From: a virus | Direction: 5' to 3' (one strand) | IMG/VR virus record: IMGVR_UViG_3300001686_000005 | Location: 8,222-46,620 of that record | DNA: 38,399 nucleotides | Shown: positions 5,206-27,257 of the stretch, piece by piece | How positions within the stretch are numbered: position 1 is the stretch's first letter | How the letters are laid out: each line of letters opens with the position of its first letter | Position numbers and translations under genes: made by a program | The notes under the pieces: generated by a model | Databases searched by the model: none | Told to the model about the DNA's origin: nothing | Seen by the model: only the letters and a program-made list of their open reading frames with translations

Positions 5206-5447
5206 CGCTCTGTCCGGTATGTCCGCTTAACCGATACAGGAAGATTTTTTAGGAACTAAATGGACGGGTTTGGACGTAGTTTGCCCCGTCCAAATAGCTC
5301 GCTCGTAAGACCAGCTCAAGACGCCGCAGGGCACCTAGGACCCGATTTCTGAAAAAAACCTTACGTCCAATTAGATAAGAACCGTGCCTATTATTTCCAG
5401 AAACCCACAACCGGGTGCCCCGACACCACCCTCCGAGCCCTAATCCG

Positions 5448-8141: not shown

Positions 8142-8435
8142 TCAACCGATGGTCAGAATCACCAGCGCATCCCGGATGGCCGCGTGTGCGCCATGGTGCT
8201 CGGTCGTGGACGTGAACGACTCGCCGCCGTCGTAGTCCGCGTGCGCCGTCAACGTCTGGCCGTCGCGGCTGAACACCTGTGCCCAGTTCCCCGACTCCCC
8301 CATGTCGGAGTTCAACAGGTCGAACGTCCAGGCCAGCGTGTCCACCCGCTTGGCCAGGATGCCGAACCGACCCGTGGAGAAGGTGAACTCGGAGCCGACG
8401 GCCAGGTTCTCGATGGCGGTGGTGTTGACGTTCAC
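8142..8435 (-). CDS. Hypothetical protein, 97 aa
   Basis: Leftward gene with GTG start at 8435 behind CGGAGGCCATC. Beta-rich (SEFTFSTGRFGILAKR, WTFDLLNS) with an acidic middle and a hydrophobic C-terminal helix (AIRDALVILTIG). No domain recognised. Single gene under promoter 8483-8511. Confidence 0.75.
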   Translation of the reverse strand: MNVNTTAIENLAVGSEFTFSTGRFGILAKRVDTLAWTFDLLNSDMGESGNWAQVFSRDGQTLTAHADYDGGESFTSTTEHHGAHAAIRDALVILTIG

Positions 8436-22203: not shown

Positions 22204-22589
22204 TGGAGTACAGGGCCTTTTACCAGAACGGCGGGTTCGCCACCTTCGAATGGGAAGGCGACCCGACCGATCCGGAAGGCATGGACGAGCTGCTGGAAGC
22301 CGCGTACCAGGCGGCCCCCACCGGCCTGTGCCACCAGTGCGCCGGCAACTTCGAAATCTCCGATGACAACGAAGTGTACGAAATCAGCGAGGATGAATCC
22401 GGCGAGAAGGTGTTCAGCGAACCGACCTGGGACGAGCGGATCCGCGAGTCGGCCGCCAACGCCACCGTGCTGAATCGGAAGCTTGTGGCGGAACTGGAGA
22501 CCGTCAAGGCCACGCGATCCGCGCTCGTGCGGGATCTCCGCGCGGCGGGCTTCACTGTCGACCCGCACACCTTCGCCGTGTCCCGCTGA
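22203..22589 (+). CDS. Hypothetical acidic protein, 128 aa
   Basis: Rightward gene; GTG at 22203 uses the last base of the previous TAG, with GGAGAAAGC upstream. Very acidic middle (ISDDNEVYEISEDESGEKVF), one CxxC (CHQC), and a C-terminal helix (NRKLVAELETVKATRSALVR) that may be a coiled coil. Ends where the GGGACA repeat array begins. Function unknown; a role with the adjoining transfer-like locus is possible only by position. Confidence 0.7.
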   Translation: MEYRAFYQNGGFATFEWEGDPTDPEGMDELLEAAYQAAPTGLCHQCAGNFEISDDNEVYEISEDESGEKVFSEPTWDERIRESAANATVLNRKLVAELETVKATRSALVRDLRAAGFTVDPHTFAVSR

Positions 22590-22925
22590 TGTCCCGGTGT
22601 CCCGGCCCCTGTCCGGGACACCGGGACAACCTGTCTGATGTCCCGGGCGCGGGACAGGATGTCCCGGGACATCAGACGTCGCACCGGGACACTCTGTCCG
22701 GGACATCCGGGACATGTCCCGGGACAACCTGTCCCGGATGTCCCGGACCGGGCGGGACATGTCCCGGGACATCCGGGACATGCTGTCCGGGACACCGGGA
22801 CACCTGGCGGGACAGCTGTCCCGGGACAGCTGGGACATGTCCCGGATGGCGGCCGGGACATCCGGGACAGGTTGTCCCGGACTTGTCCCGGGACAGCCAC
22901 CGGCTACGGTGTCGGTGTCCCGAGG
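22579..22925. repeat. Dense GGGACA/TGTCCC repeat array (clt-like)
   Basis: About 33 copies of the hexamer GGGACA or its complement by eye in about 345 bp, often as the 12-bp palindrome TGTCCCGGGACA (for example 22660-22671). A 15-bp perfect inverted repeat joins 22633-22647 and 22663-22677. No supported gene covers it. It lies at the 3' side of the FtsK/TraB-type gene, the place where clt recognition repeats lie in actinomycete conjugative plasmids. Confidence 0.8.
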
Positions 22926-22983
22926 TTCGAGCCCCGGCGCGGTCCCTCACTCCGGCAGCGTTGGCGGTGCTCCCCCGAGACGA

Positions 22984-23020
22984 GAGAAGCCCCGGCGTCG
23001 ATCACCCGCCGGGGCTTCTC
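22984..23020. terminator. Perfect 14-bp hairpin
   Basis: GAGAAGCCCCGGCG (22984-22997) and CGCCGGGGCTTCTC (23007-23020) with a 9-base loop. It separates the repeat array from the translocase gene and may stop transcription from both sides. Confidence 0.65.
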
Positions 23021-23023
23021 ACT

Positions 23024-23116
23024 GTCCACTGGACGATGAGACTGTCCAGCGAGGGGTTTGGGGAGTGTTTATACAGGTCAGAGGCCCACTGGACGGTCCG
23101 GAACCGTCCAGTGGAC
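23024..23116. repeat. GTCCA-N-TGGAC dyads and 11-bp inverted repeat
   Basis: GTCCACTGGAC (23024-23034) and GTCCAGTGGAC (23106-23116), both followed by GAT, flank a further inverted repeat CACTGGACGGT/ACCGTCCAGTG (23087-23113, 5-base loop). The set lies between the hairpin and the 3' end of the translocase gene. Possible binding sites of a transfer or replication protein. Confidence 0.55.
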
Positions 23117-23124
23117 GATCACGG

Positions 23125-25146
23125 TCAGTGAGAAACGAGCGTTTCTGACCACGCCCAGTGACCATGCTGGGTGGAGTCAACCCGCCCCGCCGCCTTCAAC
23201 TCCGCCAACTTCGGGTACAGCCACGAACTCGACCGCGTTGCCGCCCGCGCCAGGTCCCGCGCCCGCGCACCCTCCGGACCCGCCGCCTTCAACGCCCCGA
23301 TCAGCGCCGACACGGCCGCGTCCTCATCCAACTTGCCCCGCTCCCGATCCGCGACCATCGCCGCCTGCTCCCGGGACATCGTGTCCCGCTCCTCCGGCGA
23401 CAACCGGGACAAGTGCAACGCCACCAGCTCCGCCAGCGGGACATCCGGCCCGTCCAGCCGCTCCGTGATGTCCCGGTCCTCCACGTCGTCCTGTCCCGGC
23501 ATGTCCCGCTCCTGTCCCACGCTGTCCCGGGACATGTCCCGGCCGTCCGGGACAGTGTCCCGCTGTCCCGGGACATCCGGGACATGTCCCAGCGGGACAC
23601 CGTCGTCGTCCAGCGGGACAACCATGGCCCGATCCGCGTACTCCGGGACAGCGTCGGCCGCCGCCTGCGCCGACACCGCGTCCAGTGCGCACGTGCGTCC
23701 CTGACGCAACCTGACGAGCGTCTTCACCGTCTCGTCATCCACGTACTGAATGCGAATCGGCATACGGTCGATCGTCTCCGCGTCCTGGTAGTAACACGTT
23801 CCCGGGCGGGACTGGGGAATCAGGTTCGCCCCCATCTTGCCATCCCGATCGTTTCCGAACACGAAATATTCCCCCGTGTCGCTCTGCATACGGAAACAGA
23901 ACCGCTGGTCCAACTGCTCGCGGACCAGGTTCGAGCCGAACGCCAACAAGGTCGGATATTGAGTGGCCTCCACGATCTCCACTCCGACGGCACGGCCCTT
24001 CTGGATGACGCGTTCCAACATTTCCAGTTGCTTGCGGTTCATCGCGCCGTTGAACGAGTGGCATTCGTCCACGATCACGGTGAGCACTGGGTATTCGTCG
24101 GTCATGGGCCATTTGCGGATTCCCATGTCGGCGCAGTGCAACGCGCGGGCGTCCACGACCGCTTCCAACGCCTCCAACAGCATCATGGCGTCGGTGAAGT
24201 TGGTGACCACCCAATCCATGACGTTGCGCCACGGTCCGAGTTCCATTCCGCCCTTGAGGTCCACACCCCACATGACCGCGTTGCGAGCACAGGCCCGGTT
24301 GCCGGCGATCAGGTTGACGAGCCCGGACTTTCCGGAGCCCTTCGACCCGGCGATCATGACGGAACGGGATCCGAACTCCTCACGGTCGGTGAGCGTCATG
24401 GTCTTCAGCTCCCCATCCTCCCGGTAACCCAGAGTGATCGGGTCGCAGGCGTCCATGTCCTGGATGTAGAACTCGCCATCGATCTCCTCCACCGGGATCT
24501 CCCACCGAATCCCCTTCTCGTGCGGATCCGTCATAAACGCCGTGAACAGCACCGAATTCGAGTGCCGCCCATTTCGCTCCATGCGCAACGTGCCCGTCGG
24601 AAGATCCAACGCGCCCTCGATTTGCTCCCGCTTCTTGAGAATGTCCCCCACCGTGTAATCCCCGGCGGGCCACACCAGCTTGCCGCCGAAGTTGCCCTCA
24701 CCGTGCGCCCGGATGTCGACCGGGCGCACGGTGTCCATGTGCAACTTGCGGGCCAGCGATGGCCACCGTTCCACCGTCCGTTCCAACGTGACCTTGGTGA
24801 CGCGTCGGTTGTTCCGCCACCACGGGATCCCCAGCGCCGTGCCGATCCCGGCGGCGATGATCGCAGTCCAGTCGAAATGCGCCCACCCCAACTCGTGCAG
24901 GGTGAGCACAGCCGACGTGGACGCCCCCAGGACACCCCACAGGTACATCTTGTTGCGGTCGTCACCGCCACGGGTGTTCACCCACGACGCGCACGCCAGA
25001 CCGCCACCGGCCAACCCCAACGCCAACGGCGTCAACGGCACGTACTGACTTGCCTCTCCCACTGCGACAACACCGGTGGTGACGTACATGGGCGTCAACC
25101 CGGACCGGTGACGGCGCATGGTTCCCGCCACTTTCGCGACGCCCAT
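23125..25146 (-). CDS. FtsK/SpoIIIE-TraB-type DNA translocase, 673 aa
   Basis: Leftward gene; ATG at 25146 behind GGGAGGACAGGAATC. Three to four membrane segments in residues 22-110, then a RecA-like motor: Walker A GSKGSGKS (267-274), Walker B VLTVIVDE (354-361), and TQYPTL/RFCFRM motifs of FtsK ATPases. Residues about 515-565 are a low-complexity linker encoded by dense GGGACA/TGTCCC repeats. Residues 610-670 (ALKAAGPEGARARDLARAA, then LYPKLAELKAAGRV) form a winged helix like FtsK gamma. In actinomycete plasmids TraB of this build pumps double-stranded DNA between hyphae after binding clt repeats. Here it could move phage or plasmid DNA. Confidence 0.85.
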   Translation of the reverse strand: MGVAKVAGTMRRHRSGLTPMYVTTGVVAVGEASQYVPLTPLALGLAGGGLACASWVNTRGGDDRNKMYLWGVLGASTSAVLTLHELGWAHFDWTAIIAAGIGTALGIPWWRNNRRVTKVTLERTVERWPSLARKLHMDTVRPVDIRAHGEGNFGGKLVWPAGDYTVGDILKKREQIEGALDLPTGTLRMERNGRHSNSVLFTAFMTDPHEKGIRWEIPVEEIDGEFYIQDMDACDPITLGYREDGELKTMTLTDREEFGSRSVMIAGSKGSGKSGLVNLIAGNRACARNAVMWGVDLKGGMELGPWRNVMDWVVTNFTDAMMLLEALEAVVDARALHCADMGIRKWPMTDEYPVLTVIVDECHSFNGAMNRKQLEMLERVIQKGRAVGVEIVEATQYPTLLAFGSNLVREQLDQRFCFRMQSDTGEYFVFGNDRDGKMGANLIPQSRPGTCYYQDAETIDRMPIRIQYVDDETVKTLVRLRQGRTCALDAVSAQAAADAVPEYADRAMVVPLDDDGVPLGHVPDVPGQRDTVPDGRDMSRDSVGQERDMPGQDDVEDRDITERLDGPDVPLAELVALHLSRLSPEERDTMSREQAAMVADRERGKLDEDAAVSALIGALKAAGPEGARARDLARAATRSSSWLYPKLAELKAAGRVDSTQHGHWAWSETLVSH
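23390..23660. repeat. GGGACA/TGTCCC repeats inside the translocase gene
   Basis: About 20 further hexamers within the coding sequence of the linker, including two TGTCCCGGGACA palindromes. The repeats force Arg-Asp, Ser-Arg and Val-Pro steps in the protein, so DNA-site selection seems to shape this linker. Confidence 0.7.
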
Positions 25147-25161
25147 GATTCCTGTCCTCCC

Positions 25162-26175
25162 TTACGAGTTCGGGACCGCGACACCGGAGCGCAACAGCGC
25201 CAGGTACGGCCCGTAGATGGTTTCGATCGTGTTCCACACGGCGGTGAACGCCTCCGTCTCCACTTCCGCCAACGCGATGATCCGATCCAGACCCTTCGCG
25301 ACCAGCGGATCCACGTTCAGCCGCTTGACCAGCGTCAGTTGCAACAGCTCCAGCGCTTCCGCGCGGGCGCTCGCGGCCTGTGCCAGGCCAGAGATGATGT
25401 CCATGACGTCGTCGGTTCCCTGGGGCACGGTGTCCCCGATCTCGACCCACGCCCGTGCGACCCGGGCGGCTGCACTCGTTCCGTCAGCCATGACTTTTTT
25501 GCCCCTTTCCTCGACTCGTTTTCTGGCCACCGCGACCATTGCGGATGCCTTGTGGTGACCGGCGGTGGACCGGTGTGTCCGGTGCCGTCCGGCTGGCGTG
25601 TTCGGCACCGGGCGGACCTTGACCTTGCCGGCGGTGCGCCGCATGTAGGTCGGGTGGATCGTCGGCTTGTGCTTTGGGAATACCCGCGTCTCGTTCCGAT
25701 GCTTGTCGCTGTAGTGCTTGTTCAACTCGGCCATGTCGTGGAACGTCGTTCCGCACGCGCATGTCACAACGTGCCGAACACGCCACCACGGGCCTTTTCG
25801 CTCCACCTTCGCCAGGCGGTGGCCGCTCCATTTCGGCGCGGCGCGACGCTTGACGTGACGACGCACGACGGGGGGGACCCGGCGTCCGCCCTCGATTGCG
25901 CCGACCCCCGCCCCGGCGACCGCGTATCCGGCGATCTTCACGACGCCGAGCACGAGGTGCGCTACGCCCCGAGTGAGCTTGCGCCGCTTGGGAACCCGGT
26001 CCGCGAGTTTCGAGCGGTACCACTGGGTGGTGCGCATGTGCCCGACGAACCGGGCTCCCACGGTCGGCCTGTCCGATGCGGGCGCGGTGGCTGGTGGCGG
26101 TGGGGTGGCGCGCGGCGCGCGGGTTTGCTTGCCGGTGGGACGGGGCCGCTTGGTGGTTTTCATCGTCTTGGGCAT
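25162..26175 (-). CDS. C2H2 zinc-finger protein of the transfer-like operon, 337 aa
   Basis: Leftward gene; ATG at 26175 behind AGAGGAGTAAGCC. Basic, Pro-rich N-terminus (residues 1-70), a hydrophobic stretch (VAHLVLGVVKIAGYAVAGAG, 71-90) that may touch the membrane, then C139-x-C141-x12-H154-x4-H159, a C2H2-type finger, and a helical C-terminal third. Lies between the DUF2637-like gene and the translocase, with gaps of 3 and 15 bp. Similar zinc proteins occur near tra genes of actinomycete elements, but no named family can be given. Confidence 0.7.
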   Translation of the reverse strand: MPKTMKTTKRPRPTGKQTRAPRATPPPPATAPASDRPTVGARFVGHMRTTQWYRSKLADRVPKRRKLTRGVAHLVLGVVKIAGYAVAGAGVGAIEGGRRVPPVVRRHVKRRAAPKWSGHRLAKVERKGPWWRVRHVVTCACGTTFHDMAELNKHYSDKHRNETRVFPKHKPTIHPTYMRRTAGKVKVRPVPNTPAGRHRTHRSTAGHHKASAMVAVARKRVEERGKKVMADGTSAAARVARAWVEIGDTVPQGTDDVMDIISGLAQAASARAEALELLQLTLVKRLNVDPLVAKGLDRIIALAEVETEAFTAVWNTIETIYGPYLALLRSGVAVPNS

Positions 26176-26178
26176 GGC

Positions 26179-26946
26179 TTACTCCTCTCCGACTGCCCGG
26201 GGTCCGTTCGTCTTGGCCCGGATCCGTCCGAGCGTTTTGCGGGTGGTGTCGGCCTTGGCTCCGAGGTGCTGTCCGATGTGGAGTTGCACTTCTGACGGTT
26301 TCGCGTCGGGGTGGTCGTCCAGGTATCGGGTGATGGCCGGAACCAGTTCCATGTCTGGGGTGAGCCATTCGGGGGCGGTCGCGGACATCTGGGTGACCGT
26401 GGCCAGTTCGGTGGCTGGTTCCGGTGCGGCCGGTAATGCGGGTGCGGTTGTCTTGGGTGCCGGTTTCGGCGCGGGGGTCGCCTTGGGCGCTGCTGGCTTC
26501 TTGGCGCGGTGGGCGGTGAGTCCTCGGCGCATCACCAACATGTGGATGATGGCCGCGAGCATGGCGGGGGGGATCGCGCCGACCAGGAGGACGACACCCC
26601 AGATGGGGGCGAGTTTCTCCACGGACAGGAATAGGTCGAGTCCGTTCGCCGCGAGGGACAGGCTGATTCCGGCGAGTGCCAGCCGGCGGGCGTAGAGCCG
26701 GGTGGGGTCGTCGGTGGTGCGGGACAGCCAGATTCGGGTGGCGGTGTAGGCGACGGCGTCGAGGCAGACGGGCCATACCCAGGAAAGCCAGTCGTGGAAT
26801 CCGCATGCGTCGGCGAGGTCGCGGGAGGAGTTGAACGACAGCACGGCCGCGCCTCCCACGATGATGCTGGACATGGCGTGGATGTCCAGCTCGGAGAACC
26901 AGCGGTGTCCTTTGTTGGATCCGGTGGTCCGCCCTTCCGTGTTCAC
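26179..26946 (-). CDS. DUF2637-like (Spd-type) membrane protein, 255 aa
   Basis: Leftward gene with GTG at 26946; AAAGGAG lies 6 bases upstream inside a sequence resembling the phage operator. Four membrane segments: about 24-42, 52-70, 88-106 and 114-138, with the SFNSSRDLADACGFHDWLSW and VWPVCLDAVAYTATRIWL blocks typical of DUF2637, a family found with tra genes on actinobacterial plasmids. A Pro/Ala/Lys linker leads to a helix-turn-helix-like tail (SEVQLHIGQHLGAKADTTRK). Spd proteins help plasmid spread within the mycelium; that this one does so is inference. Confidence 0.8.
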   Translation of the reverse strand: MNTEGRTTGSNKGHRWFSELDIHAMSSIIVGGAAVLSFNSSRDLADACGFHDWLSWVWPVCLDAVAYTATRIWLSRTTDDPTRLYARRLALAGISLSLAANGLDLFLSVEKLAPIWGVVLLVGAIPPAMLAAIIHMLVMRRGLTAHRAKKPAAPKATPAPKPAPKTTAPALPAAPEPATELATVTQMSATAPEWLTPDMELVPAITRYLDDHPDAKPSEVQLHIGQHLGAKADTTRKTLGRIRAKTNGPRAVGEE

Positions 26947-27056: not shown

Positions 27057-27257
27057 ATGACGTCCGATGAGCTAACGTGCCTGGTGGAAAAGGCTATTCG
27101 CGATGGCAAATATAAGTCGGGGGGGAAGGTCCCCGGCGAAAACGAACTGGCCAGGCAGCACGGGGTTTCCCGAACGATGGTCCGGGAGGCGTATGCCCGT
27201 CTCACCGGGCGCGGGATCCTGGTCAAACGGAAGAGCTTCGGCACCTTCGTGGCCTGA
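27057..27257 (+). CDS. GntR-type winged-helix repressor, DNA-binding domain only, 66 aa
   Basis: Rightward gene; ATG at 27057 behind GGGAGGGCAGG. The whole protein is one GntR winged helix: KSGGKVPGENELARQHGVSR, TMVREAYARLTGRGIL, and a wing VKRKSFGTFVA. The usual C-terminal effector domain is absent. GntR-family KorA/TraR/KorSA proteins repress tra operons of Streptomyces plasmids, and this gene is divergent from a tra-like operon with a palindrome on its promoter, so the same role is likely. A short terminator follows. Confidence 0.8.
   Translation: MTSDELTCLVEKAIRDGKYKSGGKVPGENELARQHGVSRTMVREAYARLTGRGILVKRKSFGTFVA

Follow-up and report, generated by a model that had tools for sequence, protein, structure and literature searches.

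In this study, we identified two dense blocks of the hexamer GGGACA/TGTCCC beside and inside a translocase gene of a soil phage related to plasmids. Across a family of related elements, the motif of such arrays follows the DNA-binding domain (DBD) of a membrane protein encoded upstream of the translocase. On these comparisons, we lean somewhat towards a gene-embedded docking array that would be read by the membrane protein, and not a clt site of the translocase. We are far surer that the blocks form a functional array of recognition sites than of their reader or role.

A plasmid-type tra module in a phage genome

The window (the whole stretch of DNA analysed, 38.4 kb) covers positions 8222–46620 of a 58,182-base IMG/VR virus record. 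The flanking genes are of phage type, including terminase, portal, and major head protein genes. The first-pass annotation had placed the repeats in a TraB-type module, and the gene content bears this out: a GntR regulator, a DUF2637 membrane protein, a 337-aa protein, and a TraB/FtsK-like translocase (Table 1). The DUF2637 protein matches PF10935 with 44.1 bits against a curated cut-off of 22.8. The translocase has FtsK/SpoIIIE matches in PHROGs (up to E 2e-22), matches the FtsK motor in PDB (E 5e-5), and aligns in tblastn with plasmid TraB proteins, e.g., those of pCQ3/pCQ4; its Pfam FtsK_SpoIIIE score is under the cut-off (20.1 vs 24 bits). Judged from its sequence and structural model, it has an FtsK-type motor domain and a C-terminal winged helix, and DNA transfer activity is predicted. 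The AlphaFold2 model of the winged helix (mean pLDDT 80) has three helices followed by two strands, and Foldseek returned mostly winged helices for it, with weak E values (best about 0.005–0.02) and a consistent fold.

Searches of the window record, which is possibly incomplete, revealed neither a tyrosine integrase, a serine recombinase, nor ParA. A nucleotide search of phages with the window region gave no match, and an alignment of the translocase against genome contigs returned only distant Firmicute FtsK-like genes. A family-2 glycosyltransferase gene recurs upstream of the module in many of the related loci described below (e.g., L018:11941–12594).

Table 1 Features of the array and the tra module (window coordinates)
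Feature	Coordinates	Strand	Basis or remark
Array block 1, non-coding, 33 hexamers, five full TGTCCCGGGACA palindromes	22579..22921	.	between two convergent genes
Invariant 12-mer GGTGCGACGTCT within the array	22674..22685	-	common to window, L005, L006, L007
14-bp perfect inverted repeat GAGAAGCCCCGGCG / CGCCGGGGCTTCTC, terminator-like	22984..23020	.	between array and translocase
TGGAC/GTCCA inverted repeats, candidate clt	23024..23116	.	translocase 3' end; also L006, L007
TraB/FtsK-like DNA translocase, 673 aa	23125..25146	-	PHROGs, tblastn, PDB
Translocase C-terminal winged helix, residues about 608–666	23149..23325	-	AlphaFold2, Foldseek
Array block 2, 20 hexamers, two palindromes	23373..23650	.	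coding linker of translocase gene
337-aa module protein, one hydrophobic stretch	25162..26175	-	without family match
DUF2637 membrane protein, 255 aa, predicted array reader	26179..26946	-	PF10935, E 2.6e-11
C-terminal domain of DUF2637 protein, residues about 200–246, remote class-1 DBD	26209..26349	-	hhalign
GntR-family regulator (PF00392)	27057..27257	+	profile match; divergent from module

The GGGACA array

The window holds 80 GGGACA/TGTCCC hexamers, 53 of them in the two blocks and the other 27 scattered. The first-pass annotation had counted about 33 hexamers in non-coding DNA, about 20 in the translocase linker, and seven palindromes, and all three counts hold. It had drawn the array as one run from 22579 to 23660. 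That outline is right for two dense blocks, in which hexamers start at 22579–22916 and 23373–23645, but the intervening 22922–23372 contains no hexamer and instead holds the terminator-like hairpin, the TGGAC/GTCCA inverted repeat, and the 3' end of the translocase gene. The seven copies of TGTCCCGGGACA lie at 22660, 22715, 22760, 22817, 22884, 23523, and 23564, and none occurs elsewhere in the record. In 500 dinucleotide-preserving shuffles, the mean counts were 1.07 for block 1 and 0.52 for block 2 (maxima 6 and 3). A similar density in unrelated regions had been named as grounds for doubt; the rest of the record outside the blocks carries 0.76 hexamers per kb. The extended half-site is [C/G]CGGGACA (138 sites from the window and two relatives). 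At the array edge, 22915–22945 contains a GGTTCGAGCCC-type sequence resembling a tRNA T-arm; ARAGORN called no tRNA there, nor any in its tRNA search.

Both blocks are present in the close relatives L005, L006, and L007, whose translocases are 71–72% identical over the alignment. At the position of the inverted repeat at 22984–23020, L006 and L007 have a different GC-rich hairpin. The array is kept in every relative with a readable region (L010 is cut inside the gene), and no translocase relative without an array, the other ground for doubt, was found. An HNH-type ORF (L006:10140–10643), whose C-terminus resembles the translocase winged helix, lies between the translocase gene and the array in L006.

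An iteron-type replication origin, possibly gene-embedded like that of phage lambda in the O gene, would also account for dense repeats within a gene, and pWTY27 has rep iterons. However, spacing in the array is loose, with the 12-bp palindrome and head-to-tail pairs at 8–12 bp as the commonest arrangements, and the sites occur in both orientations (19:14 in block 1, 10:10 in block 2). The AT content around the array is 25–39% without an AT-rich stretch, and no replication gene was recognised among the neighbours scanned. The array-carrying gene of relatives encodes a membrane protein, and the published pWTY27 iteron differs in motif and place from the repeat in the DUF2637 linker of that plasmid. 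We therefore regard an origin as very improbable.

Selection on DNA sites in coding linkers

The first-pass annotation had proposed selection for the DNA sites themselves in the coding part of the array, and synonymous recoding supports this proposal. With the gene's own codon usage, the window linker is expected to carry 3.54 hexamers (maximum 11 in 2000 recodings), and 20 are observed. The same test gave p ≤ 0.0005 for each of nine genes (the window gene and eight further ones). The coding-linker hexamer appears in two codon frames and both orientations, hardly ever in frame 0, and the linker peptide has strongly diverged among the window relatives while the hexamer sites are kept. Since codon choice alone predicts so few sites, it is the linker DNA sites that are being maintained.

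The array includes some imperfect tandem units, which might suggest a selfish or slippage-driven expansion of functionless repeats. Such an expansion is hard to reconcile with the four frame/orientation contexts in coding DNA, with an array place that is conserved among relatives while the spacers have diverged, and with the switching matched to DBD class described below, and we consider it extremely unlikely.

The motif follows the DBD of an upstream membrane protein

Scanning IMG/VR with the array pattern returned 32 stretches. Several of the matches are 89–96-kb records in which two blocks surround and enter the gene of a membrane protein encoded upstream of a TraB-like translocase. The 98.8-kb linear Streptomyces plasmid pS1D4-14.2, itself listed as a virus in IMG/VR, is a member of this group and has CGAAAG/CGAGAG as its linker motif. 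Terminase-like matches were found in 10 of the 11 records tested. A second scan, with the translocase alignment, returned 29 loci, many of them on metagenomic fragments; one (L066) is without the membrane-protein region. In most loci, the strongest local repeat is found in the membrane-protein gene and the DNA ahead of it, about 1–2 kb upstream of the translocase. Among the 28 phage loci with a related translocase, the array usually occupies the linker of the membrane-protein gene, and a second block before the gene is usual. The motifs include GGGACA, AGGACA, CGGACA, GAGACG, CGAAAG/CGAGAG, GCTCAG, and TCCGGA.

The C-terminal DBD class of the membrane protein pairs with the motif class in all 28 loci. 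Class-1 DBDs accompany GGACA (20/20 loci), MerR-like DBDs GAGACG (4/4), TARELS DBDs CGARAG (2 loci), the LAERLG DBD GCTCAG (1 locus), and the divergent class-1 DBD of L083 TCCGGA (1 locus). Class-1 membership was defined by an iterated HMM seeded on seven GGGACA loci, and the motif classes were set after inspection of the repeats. The HMM recruited the other GGACA loci, L048, L083, and an endonuclease ORF of L061; from this seven-locus seed, it did not recruit the MerR-like, TARELS, or LAERLG proteins. The class-1 DBD model has three helices (pLDDT 87) and no confident PDB match in Foldseek.

The motif shows no clustering on the translocase tree (7 changes vs a shuffled mean of 7.8). It switches at least five times on supported branches, with the DBD switching each time, and the GAGACG/MerR pair alone requires three changes. 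In all five independent pairs on well supported branches, a change of DBD goes with a change of motif (sign test p = 0.0625, the lowest value possible with five). L062 differs from L058 in the membrane domain and shares its DBD and motif. Because the array and DBD are physically linked in relatives, the pairing may come partly from shared recombination. Linkage alone is disfavoured because the upstream block usually switches too (its motif equals the linker motif in 3/4 MerR loci and in L083) and because, in the window family, separate genes carry the DBD and the array.

The upstream block, which in most relatives directly precedes the membrane-protein gene, would suit an operator array through which a DNA-binding protein of the module represses or activates the tra operon. 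In the window, however, convergent 3' ends flank the non-coding block, and the second block is in a coding linker near the operon end, which makes an operator quite improbable.

For the window itself, the DUF2637 C-terminus resembles the class-1 DBD with an hhalign score of 22.8 (200 column shuffles: mean 9.9, sd 2.4, maximum 19.2; reversed 10.1). This assignment is remote, with an hhalign probability of 28–34% and, for the window family, an iterated HMM E value above 1. The DUF2637 C-terminal domain is 70–73% identical between the window and L005/L006, the winged helix 54–56%, and the motif is unchanged, as expected if the former domain reads it. The placement of the blocks in the window family, in and after the translocase gene and not in the DUF2637 gene, counts against the DUF2637 protein as the reader.

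A separate candidate clt at the translocase 3' end

The first-pass annotation had taken the array for a new type of translocase clt and the winged helix for its obvious reader, so that GGGACA sites would load the pump. The array's place at the tra 3' end and the presence of a winged helix agree with this view, as do the variation of clt repeats among known plasmids and the clt of pWTY27. That clt overlaps the tra 3' end, contains TGACACC, and is bound by the plasmid's Tra protein. In most GGGACA loci, Gly or Ser also directly precedes the invariant Trp of the recognition helix. However, matched changes of motif and winged helix are imperfect: Gly accompanies other motifs in L064 and L080, and Gln accompanies GGGACA in L077. 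A recognition-helix code in which Gly specifies GGGACA was perfect in the first ten elements and broke down on the larger set.

The 3' end of the translocase gene carries a second repeat. In the window, the GGGACA blocks lie on either side of this end (23125), and the TGGAC repeats are nearer to it, with 6 half-sites in about 95 bp against about 0.4 expected (4.4 per kb). Many relatives have a separate repeat of the TGACA/TGATC kind at this position: CTGACA/GTGTCA in, e.g., L070, L072, L074, L077, and L079, and CTGATC or GATCAC in L068, L071, and L073. The winged helices of the latter three have Thr-Pro two residues before the invariant Trp, in step with TGATC. In relatives with such a repeat, a different gene holds the GGACA array, at least about 1 kb upstream. 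Random regions gave repeat scores of up to 24.6 (90th percentile 9.6); by this measure, only the strongest 3'-end repeats stand above chance by themselves, and the others are weak. As a positive control, the motif finder recovered the published pWTY27 iteron GTGGGAA. With the motif following the upstream DBD in every locus and a second repeat at the translocase 3' end, the array is rather unlikely to be the translocase clt, a reading that keeps some probability for the window family itself.

Proposed function and significance

We propose that the element is a phage carrying a TraB module of plasmid type and that the GGGACA blocks would serve as densely packed recognition sites for a DNA-binding protein encoded in the module, most likely the DUF2637 membrane protein acting through its C-terminal domain. 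Many copies of this protein could thereby gather phage-plasmid DNA at the membrane beside the translocase, which would load separately, at the TGGAC inverted repeats in the clt position. Docking might help the DNA to pass from one cell or hyphal compartment to another and the prophage plasmid to segregate. We infer binding, the reader in the window, membrane docking, and a role in transfer or stability from these comparisons; docking, spreading, and segregation are suggested by analogy with Spd proteins and with SpdA2/sps (PMC4170104).

A bolder version, which we hold only tentatively, is that of an exchangeable specificity cassette: a membrane-anchored DBD protein whose gene linker encodes its own sites, in a widespread and previously undescribed arrangement. 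Reader and sites would then be swapped together because the linker of the reader's own gene spells the sites. Nuclease genes with related domains (the HNH ORFs of L006 and L061) may target the arrays. L047:7063–7659 (equivalent to L061, ORF ending at 5321) encodes a class-1 type DBD after an HNH-like sequence and adjoins the CGARAG array in pS1D4-14.2; its product might be aimed at GGACA arrays of relatives.

If the docking reading is correct, about 30 phage and plasmid elements would have in common a DNA-recognition system distinct from clt, with its array written in coding linkers and its site letters predictable from the protein C-terminal domain. It would give a function to DUF2637, rarely mentioned in the literature searched, and explain how actinobacterial plasmid-prophages hold or move DNA at the membrane. 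It would also provide a set of natural reader-site pairs, directly testable in vitro.

Comparison with known systems

The clt/TRS sites of Streptomyces TraB plasmids (pSVH1, pJV1, and pWTY27) share with the window a TraB-type module and short repeats, specific to each element, that lie close to the tra 3' end or overlap it. The pWTY27 module comprises GntR, DUF2637, traA, and traB genes, and a GntR gene stands beside the tra genes in pWTY27 and pJV1 as it does here. In contrast to clt/TRS, the window has more than 50 sites and not a handful, in palindromic pairs, and the array enters a coding linker; the comparative evidence gives it to another protein, and a separate clt-like repeat is present. 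The linker of the pWTY27 DUF2637 gene (L089:5597–6694) contains a GCGAAC repeat array, of which the accessible part of the pWTY27 paper makes no mention. In the TraB modules (traA/traB) of the Streptomyces plasmids pCQ3/pCQ4, the C-terminal half of an upstream membrane-protein gene contains a CGCATC array, with another motif and another C-terminal domain than in the window; no report of this array was found in the literature searched. pCQ4 also carries a terminase gene.

Unlike FtsK KOPS, the window sites are clustered and have no strand polarity. As for a ParABS-type setting, ParA (PF13614) is absent from the window record and G007, and in the relatives that have it (G002, G005, and G006), it is at least 20 kb from the module.

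The sps/SpdA2 system of pIJ101 also has a palindromic motif inside a plasmid gene, bound by a plasmid DNA-binding protein, and is linked to segregational stability (PMC4170104). Its site CGTCACGTGACG is present in 1–3 copies and constant among plasmids, and SpdA is small (117–163 aa) (PMC4170104). We rejected identity of the array motif with sps, as the two 12-bp palindromes differ. In phage lambda, the O gene contains ori, so that recognition repeats lie within the coding sequence of their own reader (PMC4488673). There, the reader is a replication initiator acting on four 19-bp iterons with an AT-rich neighbour (PMC4488673), whereas here the predicted reader is a membrane protein and the sites are GC-rich hexamers.
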